This document shows, piece by piece, positions 4,892 to 52,597 of a stretch of DNA of 52,597 nucleotides; position 1 is the stretch's first letter, and each line of letters starts with the position of its first letter. The notes under the pieces are model-generated. The model was not told the DNA's origin. It searched no databases and saw only the letters and a list, made by a program, of their open reading frames with translations. A program made the translations under genes and the position numbers. Source of the stretch: Pseudomonadota bacterium (lineage in GTDB: Bacteria; Desulfobacterota; Desulfobacteria; Desulfobacterales; RPRI01); contig JAHITX010000008.1 in assembly GCA_018817425.1 (NCBI GenBank), positions 1 through 52,597 on the forward strand, read 5' to 3'.

Positions 4892-4920
4892 GGCTTGTGG
4901 TGCGCAAAAAAACAAAGAAA

Positions 4921-4946
4921 GGCAGGGCCATCCGGCCCTGCCTTTG
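4921..4946 (+). terminator. rho-independent terminator after the DUF362 gene
   Basis: GGCAGGGCC, a four-base loop ATCC, then GGCCCTGCC: a perfect 9-bp GC-rich stem followed by TTTG. It lies 30 bp after the DUF362 stop codon and before the palindromic element copy B. Confidence 0.85.
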
Positions 4947-4963
4947 TGCAAATATACACTAAT

Positions 4964-5106
4964 GAGCCACTTTCAAAACGTTTCAGTTTGGTCAAGCTCA
5001 AGGCGGGGGAAAATTTCAACCACAGTAATACATTAAGTATTTCGAGGATTGAAATTTGAGCCAAACGCTTAAGATCGGCCAAAATGGGGCGTTTTGAAAC
5101 TGGCTC
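4964..5106 (+). repeat. MITE-like palindromic element, copy B (complete, 143 bp)
   Basis: Complete copy running from GAGCCAC to TGGCTC. It is flanked on both sides by a direct TAAT (4960..4963 and 5107..5110), as expected for a target-site duplication. The two arms pair over most of their length, with AATAC and GTATT closing the loop at the centre. It lies between the DUF362 terminator and the 3' end of the PEP-CTERM gene, 12 bp from that gene's stop codon. Confidence 0.92.
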
Positions 5107-5118
5107 TAATGTGTTTTG

Positions 5119-5721
5119 TTACTTTTGAAACTTTCTCCTGACTCCTGCCAACCCTACAAGCCCAAGTCCAAGTAGAAGCAGGGTCGCTGGTTCCGGGACA
5201 TCAAAACAGCCTTCAAGATTGACATTGTCGATTTTTAAAGGGATCTTATTAGTAGCCAAGTTTGATAGTTCTCCTAATCCATAGAGATCAATTGTGATTT
5301 CATAATTATTACCAATACTAGCAATTCCATATTTATCAGAAACAGAGCCTCCTGGGACTCCCCAGTCATAGAGCCGAATGGGGTTTTCCCAGTCTTTGAT
5401 TTGAATACCGTTCACTTTCAGATCGATATAGTTTGATGTAGGACCACCTGTGTAATTATTCGGGTTTATTCTCAGGGTTACATAGTGGAGAGCATATGCT
5501 GGGTTGTACGAGCCATCAGTTAGTTGAATATTATCGTCAATATCCCATAATTTCATAGAGTCCGCTGTTAAGCTAAAAGTCCAGCTCCACGTGTCACCAC
5601 TACTGGAGAAGCTAGCTTCGGTCACATCTGCATAATCAAAGTACTGAATATGGGTCGCCCGAGCCGGTGCACAGAACAGAAACAGAAGCAGAAGCGATAA
5701 TCCCAAAACTTGTTTTTTCAT
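5119..5721 (-). CDS. PEP-CTERM sorting-signal exported protein
   Basis: A 200-residue protein with a Sec signal peptide (MKKQ, hydrophobic stretch, APARA cleavage site), a beta-rich body without recognisable catalytic motifs, and a C-terminal PEP-CTERM signal: VPEP, a hydrophobic helix and the basic tail RRKFQK. Such proteins are recognised by an exosortase at the membrane and are usually linked to exopolysaccharide or biofilm matrix. No exosortase gene is in this window. I chose the ATG at 5721 rather than one eight codons upstream because GGAGG stands just before it and the signal peptide then starts cleanly. A -24/-12 promoter lies upstream at 5834..5849, and spaced repeat sites lie further upstream. 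Confidence 0.9.
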   Translation of the reverse strand: MKKQVLGLSLLLLFLFCAPARATHIQYFDYADVTEASFSSSGDTWSWTFSLTADSMKLWDIDDNIQLTDGSYNPAYALHYVTLRINPNNYTGGPTSNYIDLKVNGIQIKDWENPIRLYDWGVPGGSVSDKYGIASIGNNYEITIDLYGLGELSNLATNKIPLKIDNVNLEGCFDVPEPATLLLLGLGLVGLAGVRRKFQK

Positions 5722-5833
5722 CTTTTCCTCCTTCAAGGTGGGCATATCATAGGAATAATAATTGGATTATTATAAAATAAATTTTTATCTATTTAGAGAG
5801 CAAATAGTAACAACTCGTCATTTGAAAGTAACC

Positions 5834-5849
5834 GCAAAATATATGCCAA
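5834..5849 (-). promoter_or_regulatory. candidate sigma-54 (-24/-12) promoter of the PEP-CTERM gene
   Basis: On the minus strand the sequence reads TTGGCATATATTTTGC. GG at -24 and GC at -12 are exactly 12 bases apart, matching the TTGGCAC-N5-TTGC pattern except for one base of the -24 box. It lies about 115 bp upstream of the start codon. PEP-CTERM genes in several bacteria are known to be controlled by RpoN with the PrsK/PrsR two-component system, which supports the reading. Confidence 0.7.
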
Positions 5850-5975
5850 TTCCACCGTTTCTTGCCGGTTCCTTGCGAAATACATATAAGCAACCAATAT
5901 AATTGCTAAACGTTTTATTGTGTTTTTCCGATAATCATTGATCACATTTTATATTTTAGTTGTCTCATGCTATTT

Positions 5976-5994
5976 TGTAAAGAATCCCGACAGT
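5976..5994. promoter_or_regulatory. candidate activator site 1 upstream of the sigma-54 promoter
   Basis: TGTAAAGAATCCCGACAGT, a loosely dyad sequence (TGTaaaG...CcgACA). It recurs at 6089 with differences only in the central four bases. It lies about 125 bp upstream of the -24 box, the usual distance for an enhancer-binding protein. Confidence 0.5.
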
Positions 5995-6088
5995 CATTTC
6001 GGCAATTTGCGAGGTATGGAAAGAGTGTAATAGCAATATATTGTTTTATATTAATATGATAACTATGATATATGTTCAATATGGATAT

Positions 6089-6107
6089 TGTAAAGTTTTC
6101 CGACAGT
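6089..6107. promoter_or_regulatory. candidate activator site 2 upstream of the sigma-54 promoter
   Basis: TGTAAAGTTTTCCGACAGT. Fifteen positions, TGTAAAG...CCGACAGT, are identical to the site at 5976; the four central bases differ. Spacing to site 1 is 113 bp, and it lies about 240 bp from the -24 box. Confidence 0.5.
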
Positions 6108-6209
6108 ACCATCACTTCTTCGGAATTCTGAACTTTTCTATCAGATAGCACAGGCTGCTAAGGCGTAGCGGCTACGGCAGAATAGATTGAAAACATGCAA
6201 AATTGAATG

Positions 6210-6228
6210 TGTAAAGAAAACCGTTACT
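6210..6228. promoter_or_regulatory. weaker third copy of the TGTAAAG...CCG site
   Basis: TGTAAAGAAAACCGTTACT shares the left half and CCG with the sites at 5976 and 6089 but not the right half. Spacing to site 2 is 121 bp, close to the 113 bp between sites 1 and 2. Confidence 0.3.
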
Positions 6229-6535: not shown

Positions 6536-6721
6536 ATGGGATCTTTGGATGAACATATACTAAGAACGGCAAAGGAAATAGTTGTAAAGTTTATTGAAAC
6601 CGGAAGGATTTCTCCCACAGGTTTTAATGAATCATTTAAGGCTATTTATAAATCTGTTGAAGAAGCTGTTAAAGGCGATGAAAATAGTGCCGGAAAAGAC
6701 GAAGAAAACTTGACACGATAA
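6536..6721 (+). CDS. small conserved-looking protein, unknown function
   Basis: A 61-residue, charged, predicted all-helical protein behind a clear ribosome binding site (AAAAGGAG, 7 bases before ATG). The segment TAKEIVVKFIETGRISP followed by FKAIYKSVEEAV weakly resembles the N-terminal helical part of MucR/Ros regulators, but the zinc-binding part is absent, so I do not assign a function. It is followed after 127 bp by the EF-G gene on the same strand. Confidence 0.6.
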   Translation: MGSLDEHILRTAKEIVVKFIETGRISPTGFNESFKAIYKSVEEAVKGDENSAGKDEENLTR

Positions 6722-12220: not shown

Positions 12221-14677
12221 TTATGCCGCTTTTTGTAGATATAGATATTTCTGAAAGTCTATAAATAGTGAACTGATATTTGCCACATCTCCCAATATTT
12301 CTTTGGCATCTTCCAACGATTGATATTTATTTGTCAGTAAGATTGGCAGTTTTTCCTGGTCGAGTTCTTCAACTCCTGTTTCTATATATTTACTCAATAC
12401 GAATTCTATGAATTCTTTTTGTTTGTCGTTGAGTAAAGCAAAAATTGTTGCTTCGGCTCTTGTTACCCGTTCTTCTCTTGTTATCGGTTTTATGTCGCTG
12501 TTAAACACATATTCCAAAACATCGTATAAATCGCTTTTCTCTGCATCAATTAGTTTTTGTAGTGTTTTTAATTCTTCTTTTCCAAAACCTGCTTCGTCCA
12601 ATTTCTCAAGTAAGGTCTTCCGTGTTATTGGATTACTCCATAAAATTCGCAGTTCTTCTTCGTTTTTAAAAAAGTTAGGGAGTTCGCCAAACAGATTATT
12701 TAAAAATTCTTCTGACGATATTGGTTTACCGTCAGCATTCCAAAAAGAAGTAGCGATCATATGTTGTATTTCACGCTCTTTTCCATCTCTTAGCTTTATT
12801 TTAACTTTCTTTATGCAGATACAGGGTCTTTGTCCGCATTTTTCACAGGGCTTTGGTGGTCCTTTTTCGCAGATACAAGGGCGTTGACCGCAAACTTTGC
12901 AAGATTTAGGCGGTATCTTTTCGCAAACACAAGGCGTTTCTCCGCAATCAGGACAAGCATCTTCTTCCTCTGGTTCTCCATCCCATTCAGGGTCAGCAAA
13001 GTGATGGAAAGCATCTACAAAATCATAAATGGTGAAAAATTCTTTCCCATCAAATAAACGTGTTCCCCTGCCAACGATTTGCTTAAACTCAATCATTTGA
13101 TTGATGGGTCGCATTAAAACAATGTTGCGAATATTTCGTGCATCAACACCTGTTGATAGTTTTTGGGAAGTGGTTAATACCGTTGGAATTGTTTTTTCAT
13201 TATCTTGAAATTCCCGCAAAAACTGTTCGCCTCTTTCACCATCGTTTGCAGTTACACGAACACAATAATTCGGGTCTTTACTTTTTTTGTACTGATTTAC
13301 CAACTCACGAACTGCGGCGGCGTGAATTTGTGTGGCACAGAAAATAATGGTTTTTTCGTTCTGATTGGCTTCGTCCATATAAATCTGAACACGCTTCGCC
13401 TCCCGCTCTTTGATTTCAATAATTTTATTAAAGTCGGGTTCTTCGTATATTTTTCCTTCTTCAATTTTTCCTTCAATAATATCGTCATCACTGGTGTATA
13501 TATAATCGTCAAGTGTTGTTTTGATGCGTTTTACCTTGAAAGGTGTAAGGAAACCATCGTTAATACCTTCTTTGAGCGAATAGATATAAACAGGTTCCCC
13601 AAAATATTTATAAGTATTAACGTTATCTTTTCGTTTGGGCGTGGCCGTAAGCCCCAATTGTACGGCTGGTGAAAAGTACTCTAGAATTCCTCTCCAGTTT
13701 CCTTCGTCATTGGCTCCGCCACGGTGGCATTCGTCAATTACAATAAAATCAAAATAGTCTTTTGGGTACTGACCAAAATTATAGTTTGCCGATTTATACA
13801 CTGCCTGGGTCTCAGCAGCCATCAGCATTTTGACTTGTTCTTCATCCTTTTTATTTGCTGTATTATTGGTCATAAAGGATTGAAAAATGGTAAAAAAGAT
13901 ACTGCCGTTGGTTGGCACTTTTCCTTTTTTCTTAATATCATTGGGCCTTATGCGAACCATTGCATCTTCCGGAAATGCTGAAAATGCGTTAAATGCCTGG
14001 TCAGCTAGAAAATTACGGTCGGCTAAAAACAGTATTCTTGGTCTTCTTTTGCCGGCACGATTTAAATTCCAACGGGTTTGAAACAGTTTCCAGGCTATTT
14101 GAAAAGCAATGGCCGTTTTTCCTGTTCCTGTGGCAAGGGTTAATAAAATTCTGTCTTTATTTTGCGCTACTGCTTCGAGTGTATTTTTTATCGCAATTTC
14201 CTGATAGTAGCGTAATCGCCAGGTTCCGCTTTTATCTTCAAAGGCAATATTTGCAAATTTATCCCGCCAGTCGTTTTGATCAGAATAGGTTTTATCCCAA
14301 AGTTCTTGGGGCGAAAGAAAATCAGCAACCAAACCCTCTGAACCCGTTTTCATACAGATTTGATAAATCTCTTTTCCATTGGTGGAGTAAGTAGTTTCTA
14401 AATTAAGTTTCTCGGCGTAAAGCTTTGCCTGTGCCACACCTTCGCCCACTTCAAGTTCATCGCTTTTAGCTTCAACAACAGCCAGCTTAATGCCTTTGTA
14501 CACCAGAATATAATCGGCAATAAGTGGTTTTTTCCTGCCACCCCCCGCCTGTATTCTACCCTCTGTTATTTTACAGACATTTCGTTCACGAAGGATTTTA
14601 GAACCCTCTACCACGCCCCAACCACAGGCCTTTAATTTAGGGTCTATTAATTCGGCTCTTGTTTCGGCTTCGTTCAA
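12221..14677 (-). CDS. hsdR: type I restriction enzyme R subunit (HsdR, EcoEI-like)
   Basis: An 818-residue protein. The N-terminal nuclease domain contains DYILVYKGIKLAVVEAKS (D...ExK pattern, about residues 50-75). The helicase core follows with Walker A GTGKTAIAF near 180, DECH near 315 and the LTATPKR motif; the C-terminal half includes the motor-associated EcoEI-type region. It translocates DNA and cuts at a distance when HsdM/HsdS meet unmodified sites. Unusual: about residues 573-625 hold three tandem 18-residue cysteine repeats (CxxCGxxPCxC) that look like zinc-binding knuckles. The start is TTG, just after the RAYT stop, so the native start may have been disturbed by the transposase insertion. 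Confidence 0.93.
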   Translation of the reverse strand: MNEAETRAELIDPKLKACGWGVVEGSKILRERNVCKITEGRIQAGGGRKKPLIADYILVYKGIKLAVVEAKSDELEVGEGVAQAKLYAEKLNLETTYSTNGKEIYQICMKTGSEGLVADFLSPQELWDKTYSDQNDWRDKFANIAFEDKSGTWRLRYYQEIAIKNTLEAVAQNKDRILLTLATGTGKTAIAFQIAWKLFQTRWNLNRAGKRRPRILFLADRNFLADQAFNAFSAFPEDAMVRIRPNDIKKKGKVPTNGSIFFTIFQSFMTNNTANKKDEEQVKMLMAAETQAVYKSANYNFGQYPKDYFDFIVIDECHRGGANDEGNWRGILEYFSPAVQLGLTATPKRKDNVNTYKYFGEPVYIYSLKEGINDGFLTPFKVKRIKTTLDDYIYTSDDDIIEGKIEEGKIYEEPDFNKIIEIKEREAKRVQIYMDEANQNEKTIIFCATQIHAAAVRELVNQYKKSKDPNYCVRVTANDGERGEQFLREFQDNEKTIPTVLTTSQKLSTGVDARNIRNIVLMRPINQMIEFKQIVGRGTRLFDGKEFFTIYDFVDAFHHFADPEWDGEPEEEDACPDCGETPCVCEKIPPKSCKVCGQRPCICEKGPPKPCEKCGQRPCICIKKVKIKLRDGKEREIQHMIATSFWNADGKPISSEEFLNNLFGELPNFFKNEEELRILWSNPITRKTLLEKLDEAGFGKEELKTLQKLIDAEKSDLYDVLEYVFNSDIKPITREERVTRAEATIFALLNDKQKEFIEFVLSKYIETGVEELDQEKLPILLTNKYQSLEDAKEILGDVANISSLFIDFQKYLYLQKAA

Positions 14678-20219: not shown

Positions 20220-20293
20220 GCGTTGTGTATACCATGAATATATACATTGCGTCAATAAACATATACCCCCCTTTTGGGAAACGTTTGAATAAT

Positions 20294-20436
20294 GAGCCAC
20301 TTTCAAAACGTTTCAGTTTGGTCAAGCTCAAGGCGGTGGAAAATTTCAACCACAGGAATACATTGAGTATTTCGAGGATTGAAATCTGAGCCCAACGCTT
20401 AAGATCGGCCAAAATGGGGCGTTTTGAAACTGGCTC
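20294..20436 (+). repeat. MITE-like palindromic element, copy C (complete, 143 bp)
   Basis: Complete copy between TAAT direct repeats (20290..20293 and 20437..20440). It occupies most of the 387-bp gap 20220..20606 between the toxin gene and plsY and marks the edge of the one-strand accessory island. The remaining 170 bp before plsY show no further feature. Confidence 0.92.
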
Positions 20437-20606
20437 TAATATATTGGCAATACCTATATGGTGTTATATACTTTGATTTTTTGATACCTATTCGTAAATA
20501 AGGAAGTAGTGTCATTTTTGTTCCCAAATTTCTTCAAGCATTATATATTAGGTAAAAGGAAAGCGGAACAAGCTTTACCATTGTTTTTTTGTGATTTTTC
20601 ATTTAG

Positions 20607-40446: not shown

Positions 40447-40457
40447 AAAAGCCTTAT

Positions 40458-40599
40458 GAGCCAGTTTCAAAACGTCCCATTTTGGCCGATCTCTGCGTTG
40501 GGGGAAAATTTTAATCCTCGAAATACTCTATGTATTCCTGCGGTTAACATTTTCCACCGCCTTGAGCTTGACCAAACTGAAACGTTTTGGAAGTGGCTC
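40458..40599 (-). repeat. MITE-like palindromic element, copy D (complete, 142 bp)
   Basis: Complete copy in reverse orientation, flanked by direct TTAT (40454..40457 and 40600..40603). One base shorter than copies B and C. It lies 11 bp after the SDR stop codon, in the 668-bp gap before glnS. Confidence 0.92.
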
Positions 40600-40726
40600 T
40601 TATAAGCAAATTTTTAATTTTACTTAAAACGACATATTATATTATAGATGAACCAATGAGAATAACTATCAGTATTACCAATTAAAAGCTACTCCCAAGT
40701 TCTCTCTTTGAAAAGGATTTCTCACT

Positions 40727-52549: not shown

Positions 52550-52597
52550 GAGCCACTTTCAAAACGTTTCAGTTTGGTCAAGGTCAAGGCGGGGGAA
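52550..52597 (+). repeat. MITE-like palindromic element, copy E (cut by window end)
   Basis: First 48 bp of another copy, starting GAGCCACTTTCAAAACG. The window ends inside it. The preceding gap 52315..52549 is AT-rich and should contain the tolC promoter; nothing specific was recognised. Confidence 0.88.

Follow-up and report, generated by a model that had tools for sequence, protein, structure and literature searches.

The region at positions 5834-6226 of the window, by which we mean the whole analysed stretch of 52,597 nucleotides, is as a whole best explained as a PrsR/sigma-54-dependent control region of a PEP-CTERM gene that would act by DNA looping, a reading to which we assign a probability of roughly 0.85. 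Judged from its sequence, the site that is repeated in this region is very probably where the activator PrsR binds, turning on the sigma-54 promoter. The assignment of the element to a published kind of PrsR/sigma-54 enhancer is supported, with PrsR as its putative binder. What is added here is the long-gap layout with two sites, the stepped gaps between site and promoter, and the IHF-like sites in relatives.

The gene under this control lies on the minus strand (5119-5721) and encodes an exported PEP-CTERM surface protein of 200 amino acids, which scores 35.8 bits against PF07589 (cut-off 20.7) and 28.6 bits against TIGR02595 (cut-off 16). It has a signal-peptide-like start, MKKQVLGLSLLLLFLFCAPARA, and its C-terminus is VPEPATLLLLGLGLVGLAGVRRKFQK. 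The start at 5721 is favoured over the mechanical start of the open reading frame at 5745 because a Shine-Dalgarno sequence, AGGAGG (5727-5732, minus strand), can be read from the sequence 5 nt before the ATG at 5721. The sigma-54 -24/-12 box TGGCATATATTTTGC (5834-5848, minus strand) points in the same direction as the gene; the first-pass annotation had already described it, and it is an exact match to the consensus TGGCAYRNNNNTTGC, the sole one in the whole 52.6-kb window. Transcription of the PEP-CTERM gene would be expected to start near 5822-5824. About 175 nt past the stop of the gene (5119) there is a terminator-like hairpin of 12 pairs, 8 of them G-C (4918-4945, minus strand), with a 143-bp repeat in between. 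Control of a divergent open reading frame of 61 amino acids (6536-6721) by these PrsR-type sites was considered and set aside: the frame matches no Pfam family, and the sites face the other way.

Read in the orientation of the gene, the repeated site is TGTCGG-N5-TTTACA, a core of 12 bases within 17 nt. The proximal copy, TGTCGGGATTCTTTACA (5976-5992, minus strand; 28.5 bits), lies 127 bp from the box, and the second, TGTCGGAAAACTTTACA (6089-6105, minus strand; 29.9 bits), lies 240 bp from the box and 113 bp from the first. On the plus strand they read TGTAAAG-AATC-CCGACAGT (5976-5994) and TGTAAAG-TTTT-CCGACAGT (6089-6107), so that they are identical apart from the central four bases. A third copy, TAACGGTTTTCTTTACA (6210-6226, minus strand; 14.5 bits), is found 121 bp further upstream. 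It reads as the weaker TGTAAAGAAAACCGTTACT at 6210 on the plus strand and has TAACGG where the strong copies have TGTCGG. These three have the top matrix scores of the entire window, the matrix having been built without the window's own sites. When the 791-bp intergenic region is shuffled by a Markov procedure, 4 of 1000 shuffles reach 14.5 bits and none of 1000 reaches 20 bits; the third copy thus exceeds what chance would give, although with its altered hexamer it is degenerate. This layout agrees with the initial description of the region, which had listed the two repeats and the weaker copy at 6210, had given the spacings of 113 and 121 bp, both exact, and had put the distance to the promoter at about 125-240 bp, the measured distances of the site ends from the box being 127 and 240 bp. 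There is no concealed weak site at a gap of 63, as between gaps of 10 and 259 scores above 0 bits occur only at the two known sites. A loose search of the window for the core with up to 3 mismatches gives 20 matches against a shuffle mean of 12.15, a number equalled by 4 of 100 shuffles; this excess within the window alone is only mildly above chance.

The core corresponds to an element described by Haft et al. in 2006 (PMC1569441). According to the available part of that paper, motif 1 is 17 nt long, ends in TTTACA at its 3' side and is sometimes repeated; it is followed by a sigma-54 box (motif 2) after a spacer of 62.8 nt on average (SD 10.6, range 32-92). Among 167 PEP-CTERM genes of Proteobacteria, 99 were found to have the element upstream; its proposed binder, the response regulator PrsR, was named from phylogenetic profiling. 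Set against motif 1 by its text description, the core in the window likewise spans 17 nt and ends in TTTACA, exactly so in both strong copies. The likeness extends, as far as the available text goes, to the -24/-12 box downstream, the PEP-CTERM gene and the tandem of PrsK and PrsR genes. Differences are the gap of 127 bp in the window, which exceeds the published 32-92 (a descriptive range, not a definition), and the spacing of the repeats, here about 110 bp; compared with the same text, gap steps and IHF-like sites are seen only here. Since it fits motif 1, the motif is a known one that this lineage has too, and not a novelty confined to it. The first-pass annotation had taken RpoN/PrsR control of PEP-CTERM genes as known and had suggested that the repeats could be the PrsR site of this lineage. 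The PrsR part of that suggestion appears to hold, given the tandem prsKR genes and the fit to the motif, while the idea of a lineage-specific novelty gives way to the published motif. Our literature search, to the extent that its hits display their content, found no experiment defining a PrsR site. Two papers on sigma-54 regulons make no mention of PEP-CTERM or exosortase, nor of TGTCGG in the one case (PMC4641369) and of PrsR or TTTACA in the other (PMC12316311).

The genome encodes prsK and prsR in tandem (contig C20; L052:10393-12498 and 12556-13914), both over their profile cut-offs: PrsK reaches 403.2 bits against TIGR02916 (cut-off 300) and PrsR 642.3-642.7 bits against TIGR02915 (cut-off 502.6). 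PrsR has a receiver domain, a sigma-54 interaction domain and a Fis-type helix-turn-helix. Exosortase is present as well, with PF09721 over its cut-off at C67, C38 and, as a partial match, C14. In principle, another NtrC-like activator of this genome could bind the site, its link to PrsR being a correlation only. Many NtrC-like sigma-54 activators are indeed encoded, since TIGR02915 has 105 matches across the genome, of which many are long and NtrC-like, and the published assignment of PrsR comes from phylogenetic profiling. However, one match alone passes the PrsR cut-off, the next best having 433.9 bits, and the same core stands ahead of sigma-54 boxes in genomes that were picked for a PrsR homologue. 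Another activator is therefore improbable, and PrsR is retained as the likely binder. No site of at least 13 bits that might point to autoregulation of prsKR was found in stretch L052. On the opposite strand after the tandem (L052 14068-19669) lie type II secretion-type genes, pseudopilin-like and GspL/M-like as judged by eye, and exopolysaccharide genes are not evident beside it in L052; Haft et al. report, in the part available, exopolysaccharide neighbours of prsKR in 12 of 13 cases.

The sites are spread over the genome of 5,123,197 bases, which holds 32 matches to the 19-mer when one mismatch is allowed and 43 exact copies of the 12-base core. A chance origin is ruled out by the reversed controls (0 against 32 and 0 against 43) and by the shuffles. 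The first-pass annotation had called for such a genome search, with the question whether hits precede PEP-CTERM genes with -24/-12 boxes. In the fetched stretches of the genome, which were selected around site matches and PEP-CTERM matches, a PEP-CTERM gene lies downstream of 16 of 26 site clusters, and a -24/-12-like box is found within 350 bp at 15 of these 16, that of the window included, C137 being the exception. Eleven of the 16 genes are over the HMM cut-off (one of them a 56-aa frame at C79), three are below it (C58, C82 and C137) and two are recognized by the C-terminal pattern alone (C102:251 and C111:27893). As to the other clusters, one (C134 minus) precedes a paralogue of the C123 PEP-CTERM gene that is truncated by the contig end, three (C1, C25 minus and C35) reach to within about 0.6 kb of the end of their contig, and six (C25 plus, C63:66539, C74, C134 plus, C34 and C123 plus) have no PEP-CTERM gene downstream. 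Among the last group, the single site at C34 (C34:3068) stands with a weak box ahead of what by eye appears to be clpS-clpA, and the pair at C74 (C74:1597 and 1705; gap 63) ahead of a gene for a Peptidase_MA_2-domain protein. Conversely, of the 34 PEP-CTERM genes over the cut-off, 11 have a site scoring 20 bits or more in the 900 bp ahead of them, as do 3 of 7 examined matches below the cut-off. For three of the 34, the sequence available upstream is shorter than 100 bp, and for two (C62 and C140:3552) the open reading frame had been taken in a wrong frame. Since only 11 of 34 carry it, the sites mark a sub-regulon.

TTTACA could also be regarded as the -35 hexamer of a sigma-70 promoter, which would make the copies promoters and not enhancers, and in the window a -10-like hexamer does come 17-18 nt after each strong copy (TAAAAT and TATCAT). 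Yet the region holds 6 sigma-70-like sites against a shuffle mean of 5.8. At a spacer of 16-18, a -10-like hexamer accompanies 15 of 56 sites of this genome, where other offsets average 14.5, and 17 of 82 sites of other genomes, where they average 13.2. The sigma-70 reading, to which we give hardly any weight, is thus rejected on the shuffle and offset counts.

The combination of core, gap and box was also searched for in 51 genomes (50 distinct ones, as L073 lies in G006) over four gap ranges. Of these, 45 were chosen for a PrsR homologue; 300 PrsR-like loci had been found, 80 kept and 45 used, L094, L097 and L120-L152 being left out. The nearest PrsR homologues in named genomes are those of Proteobacteria MAG KR11 (86%) and, at 73-77%, mainly of Syntrophus, Syntrophaceae and Smithella genomes, so that the window probably belongs to a Desulfobacterota genome of Syntrophales-like kind. 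The core stands before a sigma-54 box at gaps of 51-81 in 15 of the 51 genomes, one of them present twice and hence 14 of 50, at gaps of 82-112 in 5 of 50 and at gaps of 113-143 in 9 of 50. A second set of 395 genomes of the phylum, taken regardless of the presence of PrsR and searched at gaps of 51-111, gave a match in 15. The reversed control pattern had no match in the 51-genome searches and one in the 395-genome search. In Syntrophales-like genomes chosen for a PrsR homologue, core and box lie mostly ahead of PEP-CTERM-like genes; among six gammaproteobacterial or Pseudomonadota genomes with matches, a PEP-CTERM-like gene is found downstream in G129 only. The Verrucomicrobia MAG NGEE_A_bin31 (L195 = G114, L091) also has a PrsR homologue (59%) and the core with a sigma-54 box at a gap of 99; the gene after the box ends in VPDGGTTVMLLGAALSGLALIKRKLVA and is followed by a kinase-like open reading frame. 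This case, possibly a binning error, is to be set against the motif's being reported in Proteobacteria only in the available part of PMC1569441.

The gaps between proximal site and box seem to be stepped. At PEP-CTERM genes of the window's own genome they include 62-64, 93-96, 104-106, 126-127 and 138 bp, and at two clusters with poorer boxes they are 142 and 233 bp; the range 62-65 is seen when other promoters of this genome are compared with the window. When all 75 gaps are pooled (strict boxes, all downstream genes, the 60-65 mode contributing, one promoter counted both at 62 and at 138, and a nearly identical pair of G100 promoters represented by a single member), the best period is 11.05 bp and none of 2000 jittered sets is as strong. 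For the PEP-CTERM promoters outside the 60-65 mode (n = 33) the best period is 11.0 bp with V = 0.551, a strength reached by none of 20,000 uniform draws (jitter p = 0.0001), and the 25 gaps from other genomes only give 11.2 bp (p = 0.0003 uniform, 0.0009 jitter). At 10.5 bp V is low, 0.088 for the others only and 0.237 for all. The phylum set by itself has a best period of 9.85 bp, and gaps of 78, 91, 100 and 115 fit the stepping poorly.

The test of 33 gaps, which were typed by hand, kept those promoters whose downstream open reading frame has a PEP-CTERM-like tail by eye. In other genomes, gaps of 50, 55, 62 (three times), 63 (four times), 65 (twice), 71, 74 (five times), 75, 78, 79, 81, 91, 99, 126, 129 and 132 were omitted, no PEP-CTERM gene being seen there. 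Also left out were G455 61, which nearly duplicates G473 61, the second site wherever a promoter has two, and G112:C43:3835 (gap 119), a non-strict site with a PEP-CTERM gene. The omissions in the own genome were C1 65, C74 63, C134 63, C34 109, C79:16709 142 and C63:75235 233, and own promoters with non-strict sites or boxes were added at 62, 62, 93, 104, 126 and 138.

With moderate confidence, the stepped gaps are put down to helical phasing, the effective repeat being close to 11 bp. The accessible portion of PMC7408454 states that correct phasing favours looping between distant sites, and links activation to helical phasing for activation loops, though not for glnALG. More tentative, and in our estimate somewhat short of even odds, is a common plan for PrsR promoters, with the proximal site on one helix face at about 63, 74, 85, 96, 106, 128 or 139 bp, an IHF site in the loop and sometimes a second site of the same orientation about ten turns upstream. 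If this plan is true, members of the regulon would differ mainly by their rung, which would give graded PEP-CTERM promoters under one activator, and the window would be a long-rung (127) member with two sites.

The sequence WATCAANNNNTTR, which we take to be the IHF consensus, was chosen after conserved columns upstream of the box had been seen in the same promoters (60-65 class); C1, G100:C182 and G455:C1 were dropped from the tests as near-duplicates. In the 60-65 class (n = 27), the mean match at offset -19 from the box is 5.74 of 9, and the best offset in 1000 shuffled sets is at most 4.78. A perfect match (9/9) on either strand occurs in 14 of 73 loops against a null mean of 0.95; no more than 4 are reached in any of 300 shuffled sets, and four control consensuses, scrambled or rearranged, give 0-2 perfect loops. 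Furthermore, the 126-140 class (12 loops) has five matches of 8/9 or 9/9 that lie 50-56 bp ahead of the box. The perfect loops all belong to other genomes than that of the window. The window itself has a weak match, AATAAAACGTTTA (5907-5919, minus strand; 8/9), and 595 of 2000 loop shuffles do as well. Taken over all loops, IHF-like sites are thus in excess, but the match in the loop of the window is not significant. Five HU/IHF-family matches are found in the genome, and among the four scanned against family models the best IHF-alpha-like protein has 93.4 bits (cut-off 111) and the best IHF-beta-like protein 94.4 bits (cut-off 115). The available text of PMC1569441 has no mention of IHF, looping or helix face, 'helical' occurring only in an unrelated entry of its reference list, and the titles and abstract beginnings retrieved by the literature search do not indicate a link between PEP-CTERM and integration host factor.

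Of 76 promoters, 25 have an additional site that scores 20 bits or more and lies no farther than 450 bp from the box (7 of 9 in the own genome, 18 of 67 in others). In a count over 76 boxes that leaves out the sites through which the promoters were found, 32 further sites are oriented with the promoter and 5 opposite to it. Where sites are repeated, neighbours have a median distance of 110 bp (43 spacings, SD 10.9). Their phasing gives p = 0.15 for the own genome, p = 0.075 for the others and p = 0.007 for all 43 (period 10.1); because this signal is weak, helical phasing between neighbouring sites is not claimed. Promoters like that of the window, in which the gap is 126-132 and another site follows 89-114 bp farther up, were met in G006, G107, G103, G100, G097, G110 and G112; no PEP-CTERM gene was seen after the long-gap promoters in G097, at G107:C12 and at G110:C75.

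In the favoured reading, these elements would act together as follows. Sigma-54 RNA polymerase would wait at the -24/-12 box. The membrane kinase PrsK would phosphorylate PrsR, whose dimers would then bind the TGTCGG-N5-TTTACA sites and form an active ATPase ring that contacts the polymerase by DNA looping. Such a loop would work best with the proximal site on a fitting helix face, a proposed constraint that would account for the stepped gaps. The second site, about ten turns upstream, and the relic third one may raise the local amount of PrsR or help in assembly of the ring, and the IHF site of many relatives may aid the bending of the loop. Sigma-54 promoters of the NtrC/NifA type that are assisted by IHF have an upstream activator site, an IHF site in the loop and a dependence on helix face. 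They differ from the promoters studied here in their activators and binding motifs, and the IHF-like site of the window is weak.

A closer counterpart as to the gene is pepA of Aquincola tertiaricarbonis, for which the available part of PMC9850573 reports that expression needs RpoN1 and that the start maps behind a -24/-12 box. It shares with the window the PEP-CTERM gene, the -24/-12 promoter and a predicted upstream enhancer sequence, and it belongs to another lineage; the same source describes no array of sites and no spacing analysis. With 43 exact copies of a clear core, the genome studied here offers definite predictions: PrsR should bind TGTCGG-N5-TTTACA, half-turn insertions should hurt more than full-turn ones, and some promoters should need IHF. 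The relatives constitute a natural experiment on enhancer spacing. The question bears on how matrix proteins of biofilms and flocs get switched on.

The copies might finally be thought to belong to an interspersed repeat or to a mobile element, without a regulatory role. A 143-bp interspersed repeat is abundant in the genome, with one copy just behind the PEP-CTERM gene, and a few promoters are paralogous, namely those of C1 and C30 and those of C123 and C134 (by eye). Against this, the site is absent from that repeat (window 4964-5106), and when 175-bp fragments of 76 promoters are compared by Blast (E at most 1e-5), no more than three pairs align over more than 150 bp, each of them in the 61-65 class. 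The remaining matches span 21-50 bp, the only sizeable one being of 50 bp (84%) between two long-gap promoters. Therefore, descent from a single copy does not simply account for the long-gap layout; a repeat or paralogy behind the shared layout is rejected for most promoters examined, and an origin of the sites without a regulatory role is extremely unlikely. The repeat itself, of about 143 bp, is MITE-like, with terminal inverted arms of 39 nt that are 77% complementary. Further copies lie at 1-140, 20290-20440, 40454-40602 and 52550-52597, and Blast of the window together with 41 fetched genome stretches gives 41 matches, some of them partial, at 78-100% identity. Both ends of the contig lie in copies of this repeat, which therefore probably breaks the assembly.
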